Below are positions 21,252 to 51,548 of a stretch of 64,000 bases of DNA, piece by piece. A program made the translations under genes and the position numbers. The stretch spans positions 33,920,321 to 33,984,320 of the forward strand of contig OY365811.1 of NCBI GenBank assembly GCA_959347315.1, read 5' to 3'. The notes under the pieces were generated by a model, which saw only the letters and a program-made list of their open reading frames with translations, was not told the origin of the DNA and made no database searches. The stretch is from Bimastos eiseni (Eukaryota > Annelida > Clitellata > Crassiclitellata > Lumbricidae). Position 1 is the stretch's first letter, and every line of letters begins with the position of its first letter.

Positions 21252-21935
21252 CCCCCCCCATTACACAACAGATATCCTATGAGTAGCTAAAGTAAATAGA
21301 AATCACGCAATACTAGGCCTATTTACACTCACAATAGGAATGTTAGATTCAATTGTATAGCATTCGGGTCATTGTGTCAACGTGCGGGATCTCTCGATTG
21401 TGCGCTCGAGGACGGAGTGAATAGGTAGCAATCTTTAAAGGTGGCAAAAGACAACTCAAGGATTGTGTGGCACAGAAGAGAAAAGAGAGTAATCTGCACG
21501 ACCACAGAGGTCGTCAAAAGTCACCTGCTGGTCAAAAGGCAGAAACTTAAGCCGTATCAGTGTCCTTACAATTGCGTTGAGAAATACAGCAGCAACCACT
21601 CCCAATTAGGTAGAGCGGGTTAATTGGATGGCGATGATATTTAGCTTAGGTGTATTGTAAGGAGTTGTTGGTTATTGATGAGACTTTGAAATGGATTCGC
21701 TCTGATAATTTTTAGGTGACCTATAGTAATTAGGTCACTCATTTTGTCGAAGCCGTCGGTGTCTATACAGTATACAACGCTTAATCTTTTTTAATGGTTA
21801 CTTCAAGGGGTACCGATGAGACGCGGTTTATCTGGTTCTAAACTCGTGTTTTCAGTAACTGCTCGTGTTGGTGGTTTCAAATAATATAATTTTTAACTAC
21901 AGTTATTGTTTTTAAGCTAAAAACGCTAAAGCACT

Positions 21936-24900
21936 ATGAAAGCGTGGTTGAGAATTTGGAAAACTGGTAGAATGGGGATCTCGTTAAAGCATTTAGTAAG
22001 CGCACGTACACGTGTGTGTTTCAAGAATTTTGAAGTCCAGTATTGCTGTTCAGTAACGGACGTTGAATATCAGACTACAATAATTGAGAAATCAAATGAG
22101 TATCATCACGAAGATGTCAAAATTAGGCCAGCAGAGTCTAGGGATGAGCCTGACCGTAAAATTGTCGCGAGTCAAATGAACCATGCTGCGCCGTTCGATA
22201 TAGTGTGCTCATCAAATTCAATTAATGCTGGAACAGCATCTTTCAACGATGACACAAATGGATTTGATAGCAGAAATAAAATTAAATCAGGGAAGAGCAC
22301 CACTTATTCACAAACAAAGTTTCTTTGCTTTAAGCCCGATATTTGCTTTCGGGAAACCAGTAGTGAAGCTTCGACTGTACATTCTCCATCGCATCTTGAC
22401 GGTGCTGATTCTATAAAGACTCAAAAAAATGACAGATTTCAGTTATATGAACTAGTCATTTTGAGAGTTTGCAAACCAAGTGGAAAGGAATCAGATTTCT
22501 TACTGCGACTTACTCTTGAAAAAAGTATAGCCATTAGCTCGCAAATCAATATTTCACCAGAGTCACTCCTGGAACGATCTGTGCGTGAAGGCAGTTGGGA
22601 GTTTTCAGGTTATAAAATGTCACTCAGGAGACCAACGCTGACAGAGTATCTGGAACTGCTGCGTCGAAATACAGCAGCGACCACTCCTAAGGTTAGAGGC
22701 AGAGGATTTGCTTGGTAATATGGAATTATCTGTATACTGGTTCAGATAGATCTCTAACTGAAGATTCTTGTATCTTATTCAATAAGATCTCAGTGTTACC
22801 TACGGTTTCTGTGAGAACATGCTATGTTCTGAAATTGAATTGTTTTATTTTCACATTTATTTGTATGTATGTGTTTTATTTATTGGATATGATTATGGCA
22901 CCTACTGAGTACAGCTTGATAGTGCTTGAATGCTGTTTATAATTTAGTTTCACTGAAGGTGTTTCTCTTGCTTCATCTGAAGCAGTTCGCATTTCAACAG
23001 GACTGCTCCATAGTCCTGCAAGCAATACTGATTTTTATTGACACAATTTCACAAGTACAATGAACTTTGATGAAGTGTCATCTTTGGTTTTAGTTCAAAG
23101 TTTGTTGTTGTGTTATGCATTGTGATGAAATTGTATGTTTCAGGTGTTGTACAGTATGTTTCATTCACTTGGCATTGGTAGAGGTATGGACATTTTGGAG
23201 ACTGGCTCTGGATCGGGCATAGCAACGCTAATCCTCTCTTCTCTAGGTGAGAAATTGTTTGGTTCATCCAAGGCTTTCCTTATGATCAATTTTAAGGTTT
23301 GTGATAGTTAGCATGCTGAAGCATTAATCATGGTGGTGGACTATGAATTCCATCAAGGAAATGATAAAACAAGCTGCAATATTGTTTTCACAAATTGTTT
23401 TTTTATTTTTTTTAGTTGGTGCAACTGGTCATGTGACTACTTTAGACCGATCTAAAAAGAACCACAGTTCAGCTAGACGTCATTTTGATGATTGGGCGAA
23501 CTCCTACAGTTTGTCCTATGGAATCCAGTGGCCACAAAATGTTACGTTTCTTCATGATGATATCTGCAGTTATAATATGGAAAGGAAATTTGATCTGGTA
23601 AAAAGTTGCTAAGTACCTCTTTTATGGTGCTGGTCAAGACTAAAGTCTGTCCTCTGATGTTTTTTGGCTATTTGTTATAGTTAACAAAGCTCTTGTTTTC
23701 TTAGTCATTAAAACATTTTATTTTAGATTTTGGGCTTATTACACTCTCATCCTTGCTGTTGAGAGAGACACTGCTGTTTCTTATGAGCTTATGAGCATAC
23801 TGTATCTGTGCTGATTCTTTGTGGGAATACAAAACCTCTGACTGGGTTTTCTGCTGTTCAGTTAGAAAAGGTCTCCACTTCTATTTTATTTATCATCAAT
23901 AGTCATCACCATGAATGACAGGTTCATGATAAAAGAGTGCGGGATAAGTTTTTATACTAAGTATCTGTGGGGACGGTTGAATGGTAATACACAGGCACGA
24001 GGAACGGAAGGTACTAGACCCGTGAGTTATACAATTGACTCTTGTTTAACTTGTTATCATGTGTGAGTACTATTTCATACATGTCTTGATGCTGCTGTTT
24101 GTCAGTTTGAATTGTATTAAATACATTACCTAACTTGTATCAGGTTTTTCTAGACGTATCTGATCTGAGCAGGGTGTTGGAAGTTTCATCACATTCATTG
24201 AAGAATGGGGGAATTCTGGCTGTCTATTCCCCTAGGTAATAATTTCTGCTGATGTTTTAAGTACAATTTGTTATGTCATATTTATCGATGCACTGTCAAA
24301 TGTCTCGGTTTTCTTAGAGATGTCATGGTTTCGTCGGTCATGTAACAACTTGACTCGTCTCCTGTGATCGACATAACTTATTCAGTTCATTCATTCGTTA
24401 TAACATTTATTTAGTGCCACAAAAGAAATCTACTCGGACACACTCCCAGCCCAATTACGCCATTACAAATCAGTCCTAAATAACTTGGTATATTATTCCA
24501 TTGTTTTGTGACATAAGGCTAAATGGTTTGAATAATGGATTGACTGCCTGAATTTAACTAACCAATGCATAACTTTGAATTCGACCGAAGTGCATGCAGT
24601 GATTCATTTGTTGAGTGCCCATCGAAAATGGATCTGAGATTTGTTGCTATTATCTTGATACCTCTGCTGTTTAGAATGTGTGATTATAGAAAAGAGTTGA
24701 CCATTGTTAATTGCTCTAGGGCGGTTGGATCAGGTTCTGCGCTCGGCTACTCGGCTTTTTGGGCGATTTCCTACTTTCTCCTCGGTTTCTGCATACATGC
24801 GCGATGTTTTGCACTAGGTGCCGTTGTCCCAGGAAATTTCATACCACATTGCTGCTGTTTTGCGTTGCGTTCTTCATTGTGCTCCATCTTACTTGCATGA

Positions 24901-27900
24901 CCTTTGCCGCTCAGGGTCTGATGTCGCAGCGCGTCGGGTGCTTCATTCTGTGACGAGGCGTGAGCTTCTAGTTCCTTGTGCTTGCTTGGCTGTTAGGCAG
25001 CGCCGTACTTTCTCGATTGTGGGCTCTTCAATCTGTTATGGTTGTCGTTTTGAGCATTAGTCAATCTGTCTGGTTGAGGTTGTGGCCCAACTGTCAAGTG
25101 TTTTACAAGTCCCTTAAGCCTTTTTTCATTAGTCGTGGCTGGAATGGGAGCGTTCCTGATTAGGTTTCTTGAAGGGGCGCTATATAAATACTGAGAATTA
25201 ATGAATAAATTAATAATAAATAGTAAATAAAGAAGTATATATTTGTCAGCGTTTCAAGACTCGTGATGGTGGATGAGGCAATTCGAGAGACCGGCCTACC
25301 TCTGACGCTTGAGGGCGTCTTTGAGGAAATTGACACTAGGTGGCATCTTCTTTCTAAAGGTCAGAGGTGCAAGATAGATTTTAGAAATAGACTTATGTAT
25401 ACATTTATTTGTATATGTATGTAGTATTTATCTGGGCATTTGATTGGCACCTTTTGAGTTCTTCACATTATTGCTGATGTACTAGCAATATATCTATTTG
25501 CATCCATTTGCTGAACATTTTATTATTGCTATCGTTTTTATTGTAGATTTAACTGCACTGTGGTAACGTGTATAATTGCTTCCTTCGAATAAAAGCAGCT
25601 GTTAGTTAGACACTTTTGTGTATATTTATATGCTTCTTATTGTTAGTTGAGCCATCTTTTTGTTGTGTTTCAATTGTGAATTTTGCTGCAGATGCTGCAC
25701 TGAATCTTGGTTGGCCAGAGAAGAAGGAAGATTTGACAGGTGAACCTGAAAACTTATTATGATTTGCTAAGACTAAATAGTATTGTTTGAAAGTATTGTT
25801 TTATGCTTTTATTAAAATTTCTAAGTATTTTACCAAATTACAGAGCAGTTATGTGATTAAATGACCATGGTTTCTTGCAATATTGCTAGACAAGTTTATT
25901 TTTTTTATTATGCTATAAAAGTTTATCAATTTATAGCAATTGTGTTGTTTAAGCACTATTTGGTTAGGTGCTTTGTTTGAACAACTTTGATGGTTGAAGT
26001 CACAATTTATACAATATATCAATAATAGTTACATTACTGTTACATTATTGGCAATGGCTTAAGTTTTAGAACAGTTTACTGTTAACAGGTTTGTAACTGA
26101 TGTTCCATTTGAACAATATTTCACCCTGCTGATTTTTCAAAAGACATTTAACTAAAATATTGACGGATGGGACTATTTAGTCTTTTAAGACTATCTTTTT
26201 CTGATTTCAGCTTTCCTTGCAAAATTTCGCAAAGTAGCGGTTCTGCATGATCTCCAAACGCCTGGATTGACTAAAGATGACAGGACAGCAGATGCTGCTG
26301 CTGCAAACTCTGATGTTTCTACTGTGAACGAGTTAACTGTTGTTCACTATACAGATGCAAGGAAGTCTGGCCGCCTTCGTGAGAAACTTATGAGGCTGAA
26401 GCACGGAAATGTATTTTATAATGACTTTGGTCGCATTGCTGCAGAAGATGTTATTGGAAAACCAGTGGCTTCATTCCTACAGTCTTCAGTAGGATTTCCG
26501 TTTTACTGTACAAGACCTACCATCATAGATCGGCTGCAGTTGGCTAAGGAGACGGCATTAAGAGCTTGGAACAAGGTTTTTAGACTGATGTTGTTTGTAT
26601 ATATAAATGAATTCTGGGTTTCTTTACATTTATGGATACAATACACTTCAAGTAGTTTCTAGTACTCTGTATTCATTTAGTTAACTTATTTTGTGCATAA
26701 ATTTTGTAACTTTGGATCATAAATACGAGATTTTTTGCATAAGCAACTTGTTCAAGGTTGTTACATTGAGTTCAGTCAGCAGGCTCTAACTTGCAATCAT
26801 TGGATGAGATGCTGAATGTGTCACTGAAGAGGCGCCTATGCCATTCCAGTTTCAGATGGTGAAAAGTTTTTGGCTAAATGATTCTTGCGGACAAACTTGA
26901 ACGTTAGTGACGTGAAATAAGTATGCATGTGTTTACATGCAGAAATTACTATTATGTGTTATCTCATAGTTAACTCAATGATAAAATGAGTACAGTTGAT
27001 GGGAGGATCAGAGGCAATGGAGAGGACTTGTCACCTACCCTCAGATGCCAAAGCTAAAACAAATATGGCCTAAAACACTGTCCTCTTGACTTGGCATTGG
27101 TCTACAGTAGTTGAATGGTTCTGGGATGTGAACTACTGAAGTAAATGGTGATTCTTAATGTCTGTTTCTAATGTCATTATAATATCTGTTGCTTGCTATG
27201 GGACGAAGTAGGTATGAGTCTTGGTATGACGTCTTGGCATGATGTCTATGTATTTGGTCTTGATGTGTGTATTTATATTCTGCCTGTGAAGTGTCTCTCT
27301 CTTTGTAGCACATTGGTTTATCGCTTCGGTTGATTGATCTCCAAGAAGGACGCAGCATCCTGGTGATTGACGATGACAAGGATCTCCAGATGGCAGCAAT
27401 TATGATGATTCTGCAGACAGGCTAGTAATTAATTGTTTCATTTTTGCTTCTGCTTCCCTTTTTTGGTTCATTTCTTCTTTTGTTTGGTTATTTGTCAGTT
27501 CATTGATAGTTTAATAATGATAATAACTGTTTTTATTATTTCAAAATGACAGGTATGCAGAGTACATGACATAGTACTTAGTAGCAGATGATCATGCGTT
27601 AAGCAAGAGTTGTATTTGATGGTTTGACATCCTGCAAGGCATTCATCTGTTGTAATGCTTTGGTCACCCTTAGAGAGTGTAAGGCTGAGTCAATCTCGTT
27701 GGTCTAGCGGCCATCGAGCCTGCATCCTTCTGATCTTCGCATCAAACGTTTTTATAATTATATAACCACTTTCATGTTTTTCTGAATTAGCAAATTTTGT
27801 ATTTAGTTTGAGAACGATCCTATCAAATGTTTGTAGTTCATCTGTCTGGACAGATCTTTGTTTCTCGACTGGAAACTGTGGAATGCTTTGAGAGTTCTTC

Positions 27901-30900
27901 TGAATGCAAGAGATTCTGCAATGAACTACTGACCTTTCTCGGAGAAGATCTTTGTCACTTCTGTCCGTCGCTTGAAAAGATTGCTTTTGTATCGACGTCG
28001 GAAGATGTCAAAGAGCAGTGTGACTGTGTAAGACCTCGAGTTTTGACTTTTGTGCCTCAATGACCATATAAGTTGTGTGAATAATAATAATTACAATCAG
28101 GTAATTGTAGTAGTAGTAACAAACTTGGTATACTGTTTACCCAATATTTACATTGTTGCACAATTAGTTGTTGATGCTACCCCAAGAGAAAGTGTGGGAC
28201 TTATAAGTGTTGGCATCGTTATTTTCTTAGCTTTGGCGTTGGTGCAGTAATAACAAGCTATTATAATGATGTGTGGTCACTTAAGTCACCAGTCCTCTTC
28301 CTCTTTGCTTCGTCTCAAGTCTGTGTTAAAACCTTACTCTTTTTGTCAGTTTGTGAGATAAAGAATTGTTCTCGAACAAGCTCTGAATTATTCTTTTGTC
28401 TGGGAATTCACTATAGCCAAGAGGCCTTTGTTTAGATGCAGGTCATGGTGTATTTTGCAATATGTTTTTGTGAGTATATTACATGACACTACTTTCAATA
28501 TTACATGACACTACTTTCAGATGGCCTGCAAAGCACCCATTGTAGACCCCTTCCATGTTTCTCTGCCCATCATTACACATCTCCCCGTGTGTGACCGTCC
28601 CTTTGTTATCCATCCGAAACTAAGCTTCTTATGTTCACATAGTGAAAATTTACACCAGTGTTGTGACAGTTTGCTTTTTTTGGCAAAATATGGTTTTAAA
28701 GTTTGTTAGATAATAATAATGTGCTTCTTATTACAGTGTGTAAACATTGAAGTGAAACTGGTGAAGCTCATGCTAATCGATTGGCTGCGTTGTCATTTAA
28801 AAAAAATAGAAGAATGTTTTGAAAATGGCTGGTTGTCTTAGTACAATATCCAGCTTAAACTTCTTCGTAAAGAAATATGGAGATTTCTGGGAGATTTTCT
28901 GAGCTGTGAATATCTCATCGTTCCTCTCCAGACATTTGTAAACTTTTGTAAAATCTTCATGATATTAGAAGCATTTTGATGACTTTTCTGGTTAGATTAA
29001 ACTGATGCCACGGGTTAGGCCGGAAGCGCCTCTGAGTTGATATATTGAAGGGGTGCTATATCAAGTATTTATGATTGATTAATTGATTGGGTTTTTTTTT
29101 TTGATTGATTTAGTGCATTGTCAATATATGTAGTCACCATTTTAGTAGTCACCAGTCCTCTTCCTCTTTGCTTCGTCTCAAGTCTGTGTTAAAACCTTAC
29201 TCTTTTTGTCAGTTTGTGAGATAAAGAATTGTTCTCGAACAAGCTCTGAATTATTCTTTTGTCTGGGAATTCACTATAGCCAAGAGGCCTTTGTTTAGAT
29301 GCAGGTCATGGTGTATTTTGCAATATGTTTTTGTGAGTATATTACATGACACTACTTTCAATATTACATGACACTACTTTCAGATGGCCTGCAAAGCACC
29401 CATTGTAGACCCCTTCCATGTTTCTCTGCCCATCATTACACATCTCCCCGTGTGTGACCGTCCCTTTGTTATCCATCCTAAACTAAGCTTCTTATGTTCA
29501 CATAGTGAAAATTTACACCAGTGTTGTGACAGTTTGCTTTTTTTGGCAAAATATGGTTTTAAAGTTTGTTAGATAATAATAATGTGCTTCTTATTACAGT
29601 GTGTAAATATTGAAGTGAAACTGGTGAAGCTCATGCTAATCGATTGGCTGCGTTGTCATTTAAAAAAAATAGAAGAATGTTTTGAAAATGGCTGGTTGTC
29701 TTAGTACAATATCCAGCTTAAACTTCTTCGTAAAGAAATATGGAGATTTCTGGGAGATTTTCTGAGCTGTGAATATCTCATCGTTCCTCTCCAGACATTT
29801 GTAAACTTTTGTAAAATCTTCATGATATTAGAAGCATTTTGATGACTTTTCTGGTTAGATTAAACTGATGCCACGGGTTAGGCCGGAAGCGCCTCTGAGT
29901 TGATATATTGAAGGGGTGCTATATCAAGTATTTATGATTGATTAATTGATTGGGTTTTTTTTTGATTGATTTAGTGCATTGTCAATATATGTAGTCACCA
30001 TTTTTGTAGTCACCAGTCCTCTTCCTCTTTGCTTCGTCTCAAGTCTGTGTTAAAACCTTACTCTTTTTGTCAGTTTGTGAGATAAAGAATTGTTCTCGAA
30101 CAAGCTCTGAATTATTCTTTGGGAATTCACTATAGCAAAGAGGCCTTTGTTTAGATGCAGGTCATGGTGTATTTTGCAACTTATGTTTTTGTGAGTATAT
30201 TACATGACACTACTTTCAGATGGCCTGCAAAGCACCCATTGTAGACCCCTTCCATGTTTCTCTGCCCATCATTACACATCTCCCCGTGTATGACCGTCCC
30301 TTTGTTATCCATCCTAAACTAAGCTTCTTATGTTCACATAGTGAAAATTTACACCAGTGTTGTGACAGTTTGCTTTTTTTGGCAAAATATGGTTTTAAAG
30401 TTTGTTAGATAATAATAATGTGCTTCTTATTACAGTGTGTAAATATTGAAGTGAAACTGGTGAAGCTCATGCTAATCGATTGGTTGCGTTGTCATTTAAA
30501 AAAAATAGGAGAATGTTTTGAAAATGGCTGGTTGTCTTAGTACAATATCCAGCTTAAACTTCTTCGTAAAGAAATATGGAGATTTCTGGGAGATTTTCTG
30601 AGCTGTGAATATCTCATCGTTCCTCTCCAGACATTTGTAAACTTTTGTAAAATCTTCATGATATTAGAAGCATTTTGATGATTTTTCTGGTTAGATTAAA
30701 CTGATGCCACGGGTTAGGCCGGAAGCGCCTCTGAGTAGATATATTGAAGGGGTGCTATATCAAGTATTTATGCTTGATTAATTGATTGATTGATTTTTTG
30801 ATTGATTTAGTGCATTGTCAATATATGTAGTCACCATTTGTCCATTAAATATCATTGATTGAATAACACAGACATGTTACCTAAAGTTTAAAAAAAATTA

Positions 30901-32780
30901 ACTTAACTGCAATTTGTGTTCATATTGATTTTCTCTTTGTGATTGTTTCTAGGCATACATTCGATGCAGAGATTCTGAGAAATATCTGTTTATTGCTGTG
31001 GGATCGCTAAGGAAAAATGGTCTTTTGGCTGTGCTTTGCAAGAGGTATACTTATATTGAAAGTACAAAATATGCTATTGTTACAGTAGATGTTTTAAGTG
31101 AAAAGTGACAACTGAATGAAGAGAGAGTTTGTGAGCTTTCGTGTCGTCTGTTTCTAAAGAGAAGATGTTTTGTTTGACTGAAGATTAGAGAGAACTAGAT
31201 AATTTAATGTATTCTGTTTTCATTGGCACACATCTAAAATGTAATACATACAAACATTTTGATGTCGTTTTGTCAATGCAAAACGGTGGCCGATTGGTTA
31301 GAGCGGTCGGCCCGTAACACTCAGTGTGCGCTGTCCGTTATTGAACATGTGTTTGTCTATATTTATGATATTTGTGTCAGTTCATCTTTCTGTCTCAGAA
31401 GTCTTTTTATGTCTCTACGTTTGCTTTGTTTCTGGTTATTTAGTGTTCTGTACTTCTGTAAAATGATCTACCTAGAGTGAGGAGGATACGGTCCAAATAG
31501 CCATTGTTCATTTTGTGGATAAAAGCAAGAAACTTTTATGGCTTCAAGGAAAACAAATTGTTAAGCTTTTTGGTGAGAGGCATCACTTTGTTCAAGTGGG
31601 AATATGATAAAATAGGTGTTTGAATATATGCTGAAAACACTAAAAACGCATCTGTTCCAGAGTTGATTAACAACACTATATTATACTGAGACACAGAATT
31701 AATCATGTGATCGTTCGACTACTTGGAACATTTACTAAACAAGTCACATATGTATATACATGTATTCACATATGGTGCAGTTGATATAGGACCAGCAGCC
31801 TAAGAGAGTGTTCGAAATGATGTGGTGTAAAGACTGTCTACCTTCTCATCATACATCTTAGAATTTAGATTTACTACTGACAGAAACTTGCGAGTAGTGA
31901 GCAATAATCTTGCCTTCCAATGCCAATATTAGGTGAATATTTATATATTGTGAAACGCTGCACTACTCTTTTGTTTTAGCATATCCGATGTCAGTCTTAT
32001 CCTTGCGCTTGTCCCAGAACTGCCCCTCAAATTGGTTGATGTCTATGAACATGTTGACAGACTCTGGGTGGTTCAGCCAATTGGCATTCAAAGAAAGATG
32101 CAACAGCCTGGTAAGTCTTAAACCATTTGGCCTTTCAATGTTGCTTTCAATTACCATTATTACAACTGAAATTCGATGTTGCCCTTCTTCCAAAATTTTT
32201 TGCTGTGAAATACACACACCTATACGACGCAACTGCACTTGTAATGCAGAGCAATTGTGCGTGAAGGACTTGCTCAAGGTCCCTACACAGTGACTCCTCG
32301 TCGAGGGTCGAACTCGCACACTCGGCGCACACTGAGCGTTACGAGCCGACCGCTCTAACCAATCAGCCACTGTTTTGCATTGACTAAACGACACCAAAAG
32401 GTTTTTATGTATTACATTTCAGAAGTCTCTAATAACGGAAGCTATATTTGTCGTCCCAAACAGCGACTACAGCTCAGGACTGGTGAGTAGTTGCTTTGGC
32501 ACAATGTGCTTATAATTATGAAACATACACTTTTTAATATATTTTTTTCTGCTAAGGGCATGTTAGCATTAATTTTTCCTAATCATTGAAAGTGATTGAT
32601 TTGCATGTTAATTTTATTCATATTTCTTACAAGTAATGTTATGTCTTACAGTTGTGAAATTCCTGATATAGCAGAGGAAAATAAGTGCAAAATATGGAAA
32701 TGGTATTTAATTTCACTGTGAAAAATGGTTTGTTTGTTTGTTTTTTTGCAGGGTACATCATGATCATGCGAAAACTTTGA
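21936..32780 (+). CDS. Tandem double TRMT61B-like tRNA (adenine-N1) methyltransferase, second unit degenerate
   Basis: TRMT61-type enzymes methylate N1 of adenine (m1A58) in tRNA using S-adenosylmethionine; TRMT61B is the mitochondrial form. Thirteen exons join without frame break into 756 residues: 21936-22691, 23144-23246, 23416-23597, 24144-24235, 25250-25359, 25692-25739, 26211-26575, 27309-27420, 27837-28027, 30953-31044, 31980-32110, 32423-32482, 32752-32780. The basic N-terminus suggests mitochondrial targeting. Unit 1 (about 165-440) has MSLRRPTLTEYLELL, the SAM loop LETGSGSG (270-277), Asp297, FLDVSD (349-354), NGGILAVYSP and the closing AFLAKFRKV. Unit 2 (about 485-756) repeats this layout with KHGNVFYNDFGR, VIGKPVASFL, NGLLAVL and a closing RPKQRLQLRTGYIMIMRKL. 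Its loop has become VIDDDKD (571-577), so SAM binding there is unlikely. Exon 26211-26575 encodes both the end of unit 1 and the start of unit 2. The seventh matched boundary, at 27421, uses a GC donor. Confidence 0.85.
24713..25210 (+). mobile_element. LINE 3' fragment with tail, in intron 4 of the methyltransferase gene
   Basis: The plus strand reads RLDQVLRSATRLFGRFPTFS, then SVSAYMRDVLH, SDVAARRVLHSVTRRELLVP and RQRRTFSIVGSS, with one in-frame stop and frame changes. This order matches the C-terminal region of CR1/L2-like LINE polyproteins. It ends in the tail GAAGGGGCGCTATATAAATA and an ATTAATGAATAA run. It is inert and carried in the same orientation as the host gene. Confidence 0.8.
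28284..30839 (+). repeat. Three tandem copies of a ~0.86-kb unit inside a methyltransferase intron
   Basis: The units begin with AGTCACCAGTCCTCTTCC at 28284, 29147 and 30008; lengths are 863, 861 and about 832 bases. Unit 3 lacks a 22-base internal duplication around TTACATGACACTACTTTCA and a few other bases. Copies differ at only a handful of sites, so the expansion is recent. Each holds a 62-codon open frame starting MACKAPIVDPFHVSLP (28521-28709, 29384-29572, 30220-30408) after an acceptor-like TTTCAG, and each ends in a GGTGCTATATCAAGTATTTA tail like the LINE tails. The whole array lies in the intron between 28027 and 30953. Confidence 0.92.
31240..31345 (+). mobile_element. Partial tRNA-derived SINE
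   Basis: Bases 31284-31325 read GTGGCCGATTGGTTAGAGCG then GTCGGCCCGTAAC, an RNA polymerase III A-box region from a tRNA-like head. About 40 bases upstream (from AATGTAATACATA to CAATGCAAAAC) also match the sequence upstream of the inverted copy at 32150-32425. The B box and tail are missing. In an intron of the methyltransferase gene. Confidence 0.65.
32150..32425 (-). mobile_element. tRNA-derived SINE, near complete
   Basis: On the minus strand: head GTGGCTGATTGGTTAGAGCG (A box), GAGTTCGACCCTCG (B box), then GACCTTGAGCAAGTCCTTCA, GCAATTGCTCTGCA-like body and a tail TTGGAAGAAGGGCAACATCG before ATAATGGTAATTG. It lies in the 32111-32422 intron and spans nearly all of it. Confidence 0.75.
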
Positions 32781-32986
32781 GAATTTTTGCCACTAAGAAC
32801 TCGATGACTATGGAAAGTACAGAATGAGACCGAAATAGATAATAAGGAGGTGTTCGTGATATAAAACGGTGGCTGTGTTATTTTGGACTTTTCTAATAAG
32901 AAGAAATACATGACATTGTGTAGCTTTCGTCTTCTGCCAATAGATTTTCATCAGTATTTTACTGAAATTTTGAGACTAATCTGGAC

Positions 32987-32992
32987 AATAAA
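32987..32992 (+). promoter_or_regulatory. Polyadenylation signal AATAAA of the methyltransferase gene
   Basis: Canonical hexamer about 207 bases after the stop codon at 32778-32780, in the same orientation. No other gene on this strand lies nearby. Confidence 0.6.
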
Positions 32993-33049
32993 TGCATGAG
33001 TTCTTTCTGGTCTCTTGGCTGCTTCATGTCTTCTGTTCTTACTTTATCA

Positions 33050-34970
33050 GGATCAAGTCTGATTCCATCCTGTGTGAAAATAGGCTTCCTAGATACTTGA
33101 CCTGTTAACCTTCAACTGGACTTTGTCCCTGTTGAGCCTGAGATGGGAGTTGCATGCCCGTTCTAGCACCTGGCATGAGTGTCGTCTTGTTCTCTTTCAT
33201 TGCTGGCTGTGATAATCAGGTCGTCGAACACCACATGTGCATTTGGGATGTCCCCAAAGACCTCTGTGCTACGCTTCTGGTACACTGCCGGTGCTGACGA
33301 AATGCCAAAGGGAAGATGAGCAAATGATTACATTTGAAACGAGGTGTTGAACGTGCAGAGTTTGAAGCTCTCTTCATCGAGCTTCACTTGCCAAAACCCA
33401 TCTTTCATATCTGTTATGGTGAACAGATTCTTTCCATTAAGGCGAGCAGTGACGTCGTCACTTGTTGGTATAGCATAATGCTATGCGCTGACGGCCATCC
33501 AGATGCAGGTGCTGGCATGGATCCAAATTCCGAAGAAGGGAGACATCTTTCTTTTCTAATAGTAATAAGCTGTTCACCCAATCACGTTTTACTTGGAACC
33601 CCTACTTTCACCATTCTGTCAAGTTGCTGCTTTAGCTTTGGTTGTAGTGACAGAGGAACCCTGTGTGTGGATAACAGTGGATAACCGGTGAGATTGATGT
33701 CCGTGGTAATGTGGTGATCTCCTCTGCGTATTCAGCTATACGGGTGTTTGTTGTTTCTAGGCCGACCCCATCGACTTTTCTCAATATGTCCAGTTTTGTA
33801 CATGTGGGGGAGGCCTGATAGGGGCAGCTATATGCTTCACAATGAGAAACTCAACTGGATGTGATTCCCTTATTATTTTCAAACGCAACGTGGTTATGAT
33901 AGGTTTCATGATTGCGTTATTGTATGTTGATAATACTACAGAGGTGGATCGAAGAATAGGCGGGTTTATAGACACATGAAAACAGCATGGAGGAGATCGC
34001 ATTGGCCTCTGACACATTTCTACTGACTCCTCTATCAAGCTTGCAATAGATTCATGTTTCCTGAATGTTAAACTCTCTGTATCAACATCTGTCATCTTTG
34101 GTGCTCAGGTTGCAGGAAGAGATAATCAGTGGGTGAGATTTAAACATTCTATTGAGACATGAATGGAGGAGGAAGAGGATGTGTGTTTGCGATAATTTGA
34201 TCTACCTGCTGTTGCATTGGATCAAAGACATTGTGCCATGAAGTGGTTGGGTTTGGAGTAGGAATGAATCTGAAACTCGGTTTGGAACTTGGCTATGCCC
34301 GAGTTTCGTAGTACTTGGCGTTACTCGGACTCTGACAAACAATGGGTCCGAGTATTAATCATTCAGATTTTCTGTTTTGAAACTAAATCGGATTTATTAA
34401 TTTACAAAACGACAATCGACCTAAGTAAAAACAAATACTGTTGCTTACTAGTTACAACTTTCTAGTGTTAACTGATGCAAAAAAACTCATGAAAGTTGTC
34501 CAAACTACAAATCGAGAGAATGAGACCTCTTTAAATATTCTGAACTCAGACTCAGTAAAATCGAAATCGCAATACTATTCGGTACTTGGACTCTGAAAGA
34601 AATTCAAACTTGGGTCATCCCTAGTTTGGAGCAGATGTTGCATTGCCTTCCAAAGGCTGGACAGGACTTGGGAGGGGGATAGTTCCACAGTTACCAGTGC
34701 TGGCATCTTTATTGCTGTTGAACGGACGTGGACGCACGGCTTCTGATCTCTGCCTCTTACTGCACTGACTGCTGCTGAGTCGTCGGAATGCAGTGCATTT
34801 GCTCTCTGGTGGACTCTAATGTACTAGAGATCATATCAAGTGCTTTCTGCACTGTCAAGTCTGATTCTTGTGTAAGTCTCTCTTGGCTCTGTCAAACAGG
34901 GTTCCCAAGGACAATGCTGTCGTGCAAGGATCATGGATGTATATTTAATAATCAAATAGCTAGACTAGCT
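33050..34970 (-). pseudogene. Decayed Ty3/Gypsy-like retrotransposon (gag and reverse transcriptase relics)
   Basis: On the minus strand, from high to low coordinates: a gag-like segment (LTVQKALDMISSTLESTREQ, about 34795-34880), a zinc-knuckle-like CPAFGRQCNICSK (about 34635-34675), then after an inserted MITE a stretch ending in LSLQPKLKQQLDRMVKVGV (about 33590-33650), FTITDMKDGFWQVKLDEESF (about 33360-33425) and LPFGISSAPAVYQ with VVFDDLIITA (about 33210-33310), the fingers and active-site region of Ty3/Gypsy reverse transcriptase. Stops and frameshifts separate the pieces. LTRs, RNase H and integrase were not recognised. Confidence 0.75.
34259..34623. mobile_element. hAT-type MITE, 365 bp, inserted in the Gypsy relic
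   Basis: The left end TAGGAATGA and right end TCATCCCTA form terminal inverted repeats with one mismatch. A perfect 8-bp target duplication GTTTGGAG flanks it (34251-34258 and 34624-34631), as expected of hAT elements. Internal segments such as GGACTCTGA recur. Removing it brings together the zinc-knuckle and protease/RT parts of the Gypsy relic. Confidence 0.88.
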
Positions 34971-40500: not shown

Positions 40501-42698
40501 GGATTCATAAGATGTGGTTGTGCAACCGCTGATAGATCAAATATGTTTCTGGAAGATCGAGTTCACATGGTTATGCCAATTAGAAAGCGGCACAGTCCTA
40601 TTTTAAAGAAGCATAAATTCTGGAGATATCTATGAACATATAGAGAGATCTCGTTAAAAATTAGGTGCTCTGCATATCTGATGAGACAGAGTCGGGAGTT
40701 CATGTACTTCAATCGTTGGAATTCATCTCGAGGTTCGTTTTTTCTAGAGACACCGTGTAGGTCAGCTAGACTACTCCCAAGGTATCTATATTATTAGCAT
40801 ATTGGTCCTTAGACTACTCGTTAGCTCAATAATTGAGGCCGATGAATTTTCGTCGATTTATACACCAGGTGTCCATGCCAGTTATATCAGCTTACTAATT
40901 AATTAAATAGAAGCAGCGAAAACTTTATTACGCAACCAGATATATATGTAATATATAAATAATATATATTTATATACGTTCTGTAATATGTAAGCCTAGG
41001 TATGAACATTGCATATTTGCAAGTAATTATCTCTTTGTTTGGGGCCTTTATGAATTACCTTAGGCCTATGAGCTAAATCATGGATATCTAACGAGACTTA
41101 ATTGAGCGCCTTGAGAGGTTGAAAATGACAATACAGTGTCAAACAATAGATATTTAACATCTAATATAATGCTGAGAACAATAACTTGTAATCTCTCGTG
41201 TGGGCATAATATACTTACTCGTGGTTGTCTCGACCATTTTTGTCGGTGTTGTCCCTTCTACCGTTAAATCTGACAGGCCGGTGATAGTGCTTTCTAGCGT
41301 TGCAGTGGATCCAACCGTGTAATTATCAGTTGGTATTGTCGACCACGTTGTGTTGTTACTGGTGCTAATGTCGTATGGTCCACTTGTTGTCCACGTTGTG
41401 TTGCTACTGGTGCTACTGTCGTATGGTCCACTTGTTGTCCACGTTGTGTTGTTACTGGTGCTATTGTCGTGCGGTATTGTCGTCCACGTCGTATTGTTTT
41501 CGGCCGTGCTATTGTCGTGCGGTACTGTCGTCCACGTTGTATTGTTATCAGTGCTATTGTAGTGCGGCATTGACGTCCATATTGTGCTGCTCTCAGTTGG
41601 TACTACCGTACTGATAGCGACAGTACTCGACGCTGTATTTCCAGTTGAAACTTTGGTGCTTGGAACGGCAGCTGTTGCTTGGGTACTTCCAGTCACAGTA
41701 TTTGGAGTTGTGCTTCCCTCAGTTGAGTTACCGTCTGTTGTTATAAACAGAGTTGTATTACCACTGGGTGGTACAGTGCTCGAGGTTACATTTTCTGTCG
41801 AGTTCAATGTCGAAACGTCTTTTGTGATCGACGCTGCAGAAGACGAACTTTGGGCGGAACACTTGGCGGAAAAACTGGAACAGGCGACAAACTGATAATA
41901 GTTCAACGCTTGAACGAGTCATATTAAGAGAATTAATCTCTGGTGAATATAAATCAATTTCAGTTGAAATGATAAAACGTGGAAGCAACTAATAGAAAAG
42001 GTGACTTTTGATCAACACGAAAATGTTATAATACACGAATGAGCACACATGTCAAGATCCATGGGCGTCAATCCCCCTCTGAGTGATGGAGGCAAGCCCC
42101 CGGTCCCAAGGGTATGGAAGGCAAAATATTCCCCTGTAAGACTTTAAAAAATATCCCCCATACGTGAAATGGGAGGCATTGCCTCCGGACCCCCATATCT
42201 GGACGCCACTGATCATTTACTAACATTTAGGTCACGACTTCCTCCTAAACATAATTTAGGCCTTTATGAGCCCCAATTACGCTGTCCCCAAATCCTAGAA
42301 CAGGGAATTGTGATGTGGTCCTACGAAACTTTTGCAGATTTACAAATAGGCTTCTATAACCAGAGATGTCCTAAGACAACAAGATTATGCCTAAGTCTAC
42401 GGACGCGTTCAAGGTCCTGGTCTCCTTGAACAATCGCAAAAATCAAAACGTATTCGAAAAGGCCATAGGCCTAGGAGGCTAGGCCTACCTGTCACTGGCT
42501 GCTATAGGGGATCGCAGTTTGCATCCCATCTTTTGAGACATGAGACGGTCTTGAAAGCAGTGAGCAAAATCGTTTCAATTTACCTTCTAAAAATACGTCT
42601 TTAACTGATTTACATACTTACATGCATGCTATGAAGAAGAAGAAGCCAAGTGCTGCGAATGTAGGTCGAAACGAAACCTGGTGATGTTCAGAGGCCAT
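37512..42698 (-). CDS. Mucin-like single-pass type I membrane protein
   Basis: Four exons join in phase into 341 residues: 42622-42698, 41219-41847, 38055-38175 and 37512-37710. Exon 1 gives a signal peptide with the core ALGFFFFIAC and ends at a GTAAGT donor. Exon 2 encodes about 210 residues that are nearly all Ser, Thr and Asn, with six or seven diverged ~15-residue repeats built on NNTTWTT and PHDNST; most units carry N-glycosylation sequons. This predicts a heavily glycosylated ectodomain. Exon 3 is a transmembrane exon, with GEIAAIVICSIIGAVIIAAT followed by VFLIIRYK. Exon 4 gives a basic cytoplasmic tail (RRVRLKKSQDLTENRFYG) and then runs into a repeat tail that supplies the stop, so the real C-terminus may differ. 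The exon-2 acceptor (CCGCCCAAAG) was chosen because it fits the incoming phase; others are possible. Family unknown. Confidence 0.7.
38369..38430 (+). repeat. Dispersed repeat with TCGCCCTCCTCCTTT core
   Basis: GTCGCCCTCCTCCTTTATCC, then GGTTTGGGGCTGGTAC, the clearest copy of the repeat described at 8308. It lies just outside the transmembrane exon, in intron 2 of the minus-strand mucin-like gene. Confidence 0.6.
40020..40240 (-). mobile_element. LINE reverse-transcriptase fragment (N-terminal part of the RT domain)
   Basis: The minus strand is open for about 70 codons and reads QDSVVEQLLKKLFLDKELLS, then DYRPISNLFILSKLSERVV. The pattern K-K-x-x-x-D-x-x-x-L-x-x-Y-R-P-I-S-N-L-x-x-L-S-K marks the start of non-LTR reverse transcriptases. 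The rest of the element was not found nearby. It lies in intron 2 of the mucin-like gene, in the same orientation. Confidence 0.8.
42060..42215. mobile_element. Possible MITE with GGCGTC ends
   Basis: CATGGGCGTCAATCCCC at the left and GGACGCCACTG at the right are roughly inverted. The interior holds GGAGGCAAGCCCCCGG and GGAGGCATTGCCTCCGG, also self-complementary. No clear target duplication was found. In intron 1 of the mucin-like gene. Confidence 0.4.
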
Positions 42699-50743: not shown

Positions 50744-51097
50744 TTACGTCAGCAGATTGTTGCAGAAGTCGACCATCTCGGACAATCTCTGACAACATCG
50801 TTGGTATATGATGTAGCTTTCGGCGACCTTTCCGCACAAGAAGCAGTCGGTGAAAATGGCGTCATGCTTGCACCCCTCCGTGCGTTCAATTGGGCGGGCC
50901 ACACGGCGCGGGTGCTTCGCCTGCTGGTGGTGTGAAGAGGATCCGGAACGCGTCGAAAGGGACCCGTGGGATCGACGTGGCACCGTCCCAATGGCCGCCG
51001 GATGGCTCGAGGTTTCGCGAACGATCAGAGCGATTGCGAGCGCCAGAAGAACGGCGCATTGTATCCAGCCACGCCTACAACCGACGATACTCTTCAT
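50744..51097 (-). CDS. Small secreted six-cysteine precursor (peptide-hormone-like)
   Basis: The 117-residue frame begins MKSIVGCRRGWIQ, followed by the hydrophobic core CAVLLALAIALIV, which looks like a signal peptide or membrane anchor. A basic linker (with RR, KHPRR and ERTEG) leads to a C-terminal module with cysteines spaced C-x8-C-x2-C-x12-C-C-x9-C, including DCFLCGK and YQRCC. Basic cleavage sites before a compact Cys-rich module are typical of secreted peptides. The exon is more CpG-rich than its surroundings. A TTTCAG acceptor-like site directly precedes the ATG, and the frame stops at ACGTAAGC, which is also a donor-like site, so the true ends could differ. I do not recognise the family. 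It could instead be a fortuitous frame in a CpG-rich exon, but the cysteine pattern argues against that. Confidence 0.55.
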   Translation of the reverse strand: MKSIVGCRRGWIQCAVLLALAIALIVRETSSHPAAIGTVPRRSHGSLSTRSGSSSHHQQAKHPRRVARPIERTEGCKHDAIFTDCFLCGKVAESYIIYQRCCQRLSEMVDFCNNLLT

Positions 51098-51548
51098 CTG
51101 AAACTGAACATGGACCAAAGTCATTATAATTAACTCTGATCACTGACAAACATGTAATATTTATATATAATTATTATATATGTTGTATATTACAAAATAT
51201 AAAACGTACATAATATTTATTGGTCCATAGGTCTATATATGACAAGTTCCTTAGATAAATTCTAAGCTTCAATCGACTTCGCGTCTGCTGTTTATGGACA
51301 AAAATAATTAACTTCGTGGGTGGTTGGGACCAGAGTTTAACGTCATCTTATGACATCAAAGGCAGAAATTATTTGGGATCGTGCAAGACTTTGACCAATA
51401 CGGCATCAAAGCCACTTATCAGCCGCACAATCAAGAACCACCCTTGTTCGCTTTCTATGAAATCGCCATCTATTTTTCTGATATTTTAAAATCTACCCAT
51501 GCATACGGTATATGTTGACCAAAGAATTCGGGCATCAAGTAGATAGGC

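Follow-up and report, generated by a model that had tools for sequence, protein, structure and literature searches.

On the forward strand of Bimastos eiseni contig OY365811.1, a 64,000-nucleotide stretch that we call the window contains, at positions 21936-32780, a gene with two methyltransferase-like units in tandem, here called unit 1 and unit 2. Rebuilt from the sequence, its 13 exons join in one frame of 2262 nucleotides (754 codons with the stop) that encodes 753 residues, and an in-frame TAA (21927-21929) lies upstream of the ATG at 21936. Splice acceptors are AG in 12/12 introns, and donors are GT in 11/12. The features of the gene are as follows; motif I is the S-adenosylmethionine (SAM) binding motif.

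21936..22691, + strand: exon 1, with the ATG, a K/R-rich N-terminus (possible mitochondrial presequence), a variable region and the unit 1 head (residues ~166-252)
23144..23246, + strand: exon 2, unit 1 motif I ETGSGSG, intact
23416..23597, + strand: exon 3, unit 1, with a W..S.....WPxNV insert in common with 2b25
24144..24235, + strand: exon 4, unit 1 motif IV FLDVSD, with the catalytic Asp position retained as D351
25259..25359, + strand: exon 5, unit 1 interface strand, with E400 and W406 retained and T404 followed by R405
25692..25739, + strand: exon 6, C-terminal region of unit 1
26211..26575, + strand: exon 7 (fusion exon), the last 9 residues of unit 1, a linker of ~28 residues and the unit 2 head
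27309..27420, + strand: exon 8, unit 2, with DDDKD in place of motif I and a GC donor; the weakest exon
27837..28027, + strand: exon 9, Rossmann part of unit 2; donor recovered independently by the spliced-profile path
30953..31044, + strand: exon 10, unit 2, with Arg (R654) at the catalytic Asp position; both ends recovered independently
31980..32110, + strand: exon 11, unit 2 interface strand, with E704, R708 and W710 all retained; partly in the spliced-profile path
32423..32482, + strand: exon 12, C-terminal region of unit 2; not on the spliced-profile path
32752..32780, + strand: exon 13, closing GYIMIMRKL and TGA, nine residues, like the unit 1 tail in exon 7
32987..32992, + strand: AATAAA, putative polyadenylation signal, read directly from the sequence

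Exon 7 runs in one frame from AFLAKFRKV, the end of unit 1, to KHGNVFYNDFGR, the start of unit 2, with no stop between them. After AFLAKFRKV, unit 1 continues with an Ala codon; the unit 2 counterpart, GYIMIMRKL, meets the TGA at 32778-32780. A first-pass annotation of this DNA had proposed thirteen exons in a single frame up to that stop, with unit 1 ending and unit 2 beginning in exon 26211-26575, and the rebuilt chain bears out both proposals. Its wider claim of one gene with two TRMT61B-like units is backed by this open chain, by matches to the PDB entries 1o54 and 2b25, and by intron phases.

Several introns have features of their own. The intron after exon 8 is of the GC-AG type, with cag followed at 27421-27426 by gctagt, the sole non-GT donor of the gene. 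Most of intron 9 is occupied by three direct repeats (28231-30839) with spacings of 863 and 836 bases, which are 99% alike over a 300-base block; one 166-base block is 78% alike in the first copy. An inverted pair flanks exon 11 (31230-31331 and 32325-32426; 102 nucleotides, 90% complementary) and resembles by eye the head of a tRNA-derived short interspersed nuclear element; the ARAGORN scan lists no tRNA (0) in the window.

Relation of the two units

The identification of unit 1 as a TRMT61B-like methyltransferase unit is supported by profile and sequence matches. When the whole protein is scanned, Pfam GCD14 scores 33.9 bits (E = 3.3e-8, cut-off 26) and its match covers unit 1 only, where the general methyltransferase families PF13847 and PCMT score almost as high. 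The best match of unit 1 among PDB sequences is 2b25 (2.6e-28, residues 225-408), followed by bacterial and archaeal TrmI proteins. The query is nearer to 2b25 (102 bits) than to TrmI 5c0o (55 bits), and the W..S.....WPxNV insert is present in unit 1 and 2b25 but missing from the TrmI rows of the PDB comparison. We take 2b25 to be human TRMT61B. The entry itself is titled 'hypothetical protein', and one review speaks of a Trm6-Trm61A complex (PMC5372732).

The kinship of unit 2 emerges by other routes. The first-pass annotation had staked its claim on GCD14-type similarity within 26211-32780 and had suggested the Pfam GCD14 profile as a check. That profile recognizes unit 1, as given above, and yields no row for unit 2 in the Pfam scan, so that by GCD14 alone the similarity is absent. 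Kinship is instead shown by PDB sequences, namely TrmI 1o54 (1.8e-4, residues 23-247 of the 289 supplied) and 2b25 (1.1e-3, confined to the head region), and by two matches below their curated cut-offs: the unit 2 head against TR61B_FKBP-like (E = 0.0014, 18.9 bits, cut-off 27; the unit 1 head is unlisted) and unit 2 against TrmI-like_N (E = 0.17). The Smith-Waterman score between the units is 86, a value reached by 0/1000 shuffles (32.4 +/- 4.5), in a test that is partly circular because exon choice was guided partly by similarity.

Intron positions give a further link. The phases after exons 1-6 are 0,1,0,2,1,1, and those after exons 7-12 are again 0,1,0,2,1,1. Five of the six intron pairs fall in the same alignment column, and the sixth is three columns away in a gapped loop. 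Identical phases in the same order, with shared columns, point to exon duplication within the gene, which is the simplest account of how unit 2 arose. Judged by its sequence, unit 2 is a degenerate copy of unit 1.

Other members of the family in the same genome were sought in the whole assembly (660 Mb, 118 contigs). GCD14 (PF08704) gave three rows, all at one locus on C2 that we read as TRMT61A (L025/L026, about C2:2248896-2251029), and Gcd10p (TRM6, PF04189) gave three rows at one locus on C9, the best of which has an open stretch interrupted by a stop. The genome thus seems to have ordinary loci for TRM61 and TRM6, at separate places. The exon breaks of TRMT61A, judged from the ends of its open frames, are placed differently from those of both units, one of them inside motif I; the intron pattern common to units 1 and 2 is thus no default of the wider family. 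PF21985 (TR61B_FKBP-like) gave a single row at E <= 1, which is exon 7 itself (E = 0.132, below the cut-off). These searches suggest that the tandem gene is the only TRMT61B in the genome, and a second, divergent one may exist, since unit 1 of the tandem gene itself escaped the six-frame GCD14 search.

Two other origins for unit 2 were rejected. A captured TRM6 does not fit because unit 2 has no Gcd10p row at E <= 1, and a captured TRMT61A does not fit because its exon breaks are different.

Relatives of the gene occur in other sources. Of 2127 candidates in a search with unit 1, three proteins reached E <= 0.001 (P0001, P0002 and P0003), all of them open reading frames (ORFs) of exon 1, with identities in the unit 1 head of 75/87, 74/87 and 72/87, and in the N-terminal part of 98/156, 89/156 and 104/156, respectively. 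With exon 7, three matches were obtained at E <= 10 among 47 candidates: P0004, which contains the unit 1 tail, linker and unit 2 head in one ORF; P0005, with linker and unit 2 head; and P0006, with the unit 2 head. Identity to the unit 2 head is 67/85, 65/85 and 67/84 in these three. It is 14/24 (P0004) and 12/19 (P0005) in the linker, and falls beyond the exon 7 donor to 14/28, 13/26 and 10/28. On these identities the unit 2 head looks to be under constraint. All six sequences are presumed to come from related species, and some could be paralogues. P0004 spans the same fusion, which is therefore not private to this assembly.

The same evidence bears on two alternatives. That two adjacent genes were wrongly merged by the assembly or by our gene model is scarcely credible; the model was built by hand and guided by similarity, but the fusion sits inside one exon, and a database contig from another source shows it too. 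It is also very improbable that the locus makes two transcripts, with an internal promoter for unit 2 or an internal poly(A) site after unit 1 yielding two subunits. A Met inside exon 7 could start unit 2, but exon 7 carries the unit 1 tail with no stop ahead of unit 2, both in the window and in P0004.

Residue losses in unit 2

Both units were aligned with 23 TrmI-like proteins (16 from Thermaceae and 7 archaeal). The three Gly of the GxGxG motif, the motif IV Asp, and the E, R and W of the C-terminal strand are invariant in 23/23 of these. Unit 1 has G273, G275, G277, D351, E400, T404 and W406 at the corresponding positions, and unit 2 has D570, D572, D574, R654, E704, R708 and W710; the motif II acid is retained in both. 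As read from this alignment, neither the GxGxG of the SAM site nor the catalytic Asp survives in unit 2, which retains E, R and W near the subunit interface. Of 22 columns that show conservation in 22 or all 23 of the proteins, unit 1 retains 14 and unit 2 retains 9.

Through the 1o54 alignment and an assumed tag length, E704 and R708 presumably correspond to Glu226 and Arg230 of Thermotoga maritima TrmI. In the tetramer, that Glu226-Arg230 pair reportedly makes an ionic contact that is conserved (PMC3281791). In human TRMT61B, D335A is termed an active-site mutant and gave no methylation (PMC5025228); D335 probably occupies the position of D351 in unit 1.

A second active enzyme in unit 2 is rejected because of the loss of GxGxG and Asp. 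The first-pass annotation had inferred a covalent dimer of a tRNA N1-methyladenosine (m1A) methyltransferase; this is supported only as a pseudo-heterodimer, a presumably active half joined to a pseudoenzyme half, and fails as a pair of active units. The refined reading is of two TRMT61B units in tandem, the second of them a pseudoenzyme, with a fusion exon that is found in at least one other source.

The proposed enzyme and its known counterparts

We consider it probable, though well short of certain, that the gene encodes a TRMT61B-family mitochondrial m1A methyltransferase with two units per chain by exon duplication, unit 2 being a pseudoenzyme. Several results in this and the next two paragraphs weigh against this reading, and some come from a spliced-profile test that was run because exon choice had rested partly on similarity. 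The search region was 26576-33000, which holds exons 8-13 only, and the profile was weighted on unit 1 and the 23 TrmI-like proteins, with unit 2 present in the alignment at zero weight. With introns left free the score is 39.4, compared with 26.7 +/- 2.0 (maximum 30.4) for 25 partly overlapping control stretches; it is matched by 1/200 dinucleotide shuffles (mean 27.2, standard deviation 3.4, maximum 43.4), and its traceback tracks the modelled exons only partly. With introns limited to the positions and phases of unit 1, the score is 43.6, compared with 25.9 +/- 2.1 (maximum 30.3) for 31 partly overlapping controls; this version was compared with control stretches, and shuffles were applied to the free-intron version only. 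The restricted path recovers junction 28027/30953 and donor 31044 unaided. Beyond these it takes in a brief block that is spurious, joins exon 11 about 13 bases late and goes no further than 32067. Neither exon 8 nor exons 12 and 13 are on it, and the greater part of exon 9 is missing.

Exons 8, 12 and 13 are supported by frame, phase and alignment, and exon 8 depends on its GC donor. No long relative or transcript was found at E <= 10 with residues 200-753 among 7994 candidates scored, and a structure model of exon 7 alone is unusable (predicted local distance difference test score 37.7). A rival reading makes unit 2 a decaying passenger, duplicated but dispensable or often skipped after exon 7, with unit 1 acting as an ordinary oligomer. 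We think this unlikely. The few conserved columns retained by unit 2, the GC donor, the repeat-filled intron 9, the exons missing from the spliced-profile path, and conservation demonstrated in other sources for exon 7 only are all in keeping with decay. However, the six exons past exon 7 are all open with matching phases, E704, R708 and W710 are retained, and the unit 2 head is well conserved in P0004-P0006.

The activity of unit 1 is itself uncertain, because 8 of the 22 conserved columns are missing there (V253, I269, L355, S376, L379, M381, T404 and L426), including V253 in place of the PKD Asp and M381 in place of the NITQ Gln. The comparison set is also narrow, with 16/23 of its members from one bacterial family. 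T404 stands at the TrmI Arg position with an Arg one residue on, and given this neighbouring R405 the interface contact there may be either lost or kept. The same eight losses would fit a protein that is non-enzymatic throughout, an RNA-binding or mitoribosome-assembly factor with both units pseudoenzymes to differing degrees. This seems decidedly unlikely, as unit 1 retains GxGxG, the motif II acid and D351 and exceeds the GCD14 cut-off. The presequence call is weak: the first 40 residues hold 8 K/R and one acidic residue (the first acid is at residue 33), but their hydrophobic moment is not above that of the rest of the protein, so mitochondrial targeting by this basic segment is plausible and no firmer.

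If the gene does encode a tandem enzyme with one silent unit, unit 1 would bind SAM and methylate adenosine N1, and unit 2 would be retained as a scaffold that provides subunit contacts and a grip on RNA, a division suggested by analogies with TrmI, TRM6 and PRMT7. Two chains might come together as a four-unit body like that of TrmI, two of its sites active and two dead; such a body would match the cytosolic TRM61-TRM6 assembly in covalent form. The protein would be directed by its basic N-terminus to mitochondria, where its substrate could be tRNA A58 and perhaps rRNA. On a broader claim our judgement is evenly balanced, namely that an animal lineage swapped an oligomer of like TRMT61B subunits for a single-chain pair, with interface residues in the dead unit and catalytic residues in the active one, and so reached by fusion a second, independent division of labour of the TRM61-TRM6 kind.

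Four known systems offer comparisons. TRMT61B, a mitochondrial methyltransferase for m1A58 and 16S rRNA, resembles the tandem protein in that unit 1 aligns with 2b25, insert included, and in the basic N-terminus. It is described as a tetramer with one unit per chain, and as a homodimer in the conclusion of the same review (PMC5372732); the tandem gene, unlike it, has two units, the second without an active site. Bacterial and archaeal TrmI belong to the same sequence family, and unit 2 matches 1o54 and retains the interface E and R. TrmI is described as a homotetramer of catalytic subunits with one unit per chain (PMC5007650), whereas the tandem protein carries two units per chain and its subunits would not all be catalytic. 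For all the likeness of its subunits, a TrmI tetramer is reported to bind no more than two tRNAs (PMC3281791).

The cytosolic TRM61-TRM6 heterotetramer likewise combines an active unit with a paralogous one that has no SAM site, but its two subunits come from separate genes, which match the C2 and C9 loci of this genome. TRM6 has lost SAM binding, yet is described as forming the tRNA-binding regions together with TRM61 (PMC5007650), and a review ties heteromultimers to the recognition of multiple substrates (PMC6382703). TRM6 and unit 2 are both TrmI-related and have neither the SAM motif nor the catalytic Asp. Unit 2 may work like TRM6, but its sequence does not place it in the Gcd10p family. 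The pairing of active and dead units in the tandem gene probably had an origin independent of TRM61-TRM6. PRMT7 and PRMT9 also have tandem methyltransferase units with a degenerate C-terminal one. PRMT7 is described as an intramolecular pseudodimer whose inactive C-terminal unit, in the same chain as the active one, is required for activity (PMC10908127). These are unrelated protein-arginine methyltransferases, and the likeness is an analogy only.

The titles and abstract openings listed for part of the TRMT61B literature, with few subscription journals in scope, show no tandem TRMT61B, and the layout may be unremarked rather than unknown. If the proposed assembly is correct, nature would offer in it a test of whether an enzyme can spare half of its sites and of what silent units do.

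Rest of the window

Rfam gave no matches in the window at gathering score. Directly downstream of the tandem gene, a short open stretch on the reverse strand (33163-33324) has a weak RVT_1 match (E = 0.0024, below the cut-off) and is likely a retroelement remnant. An ORF at 881-1159 on the forward strand matches calpain weakly (PF00648, E = 0.0043, below the cut-off). Two further open stretches, both on the reverse strand and with no Pfam row, are a Ser/Thr/Asn-rich repetitive one of 254 codons at 41157-41918, mucin-like by eye, and one of 130 codons at 50750-51139, whose hydrophobic segment and Cys-rich tail suggest that it is possibly a secreted peptide.

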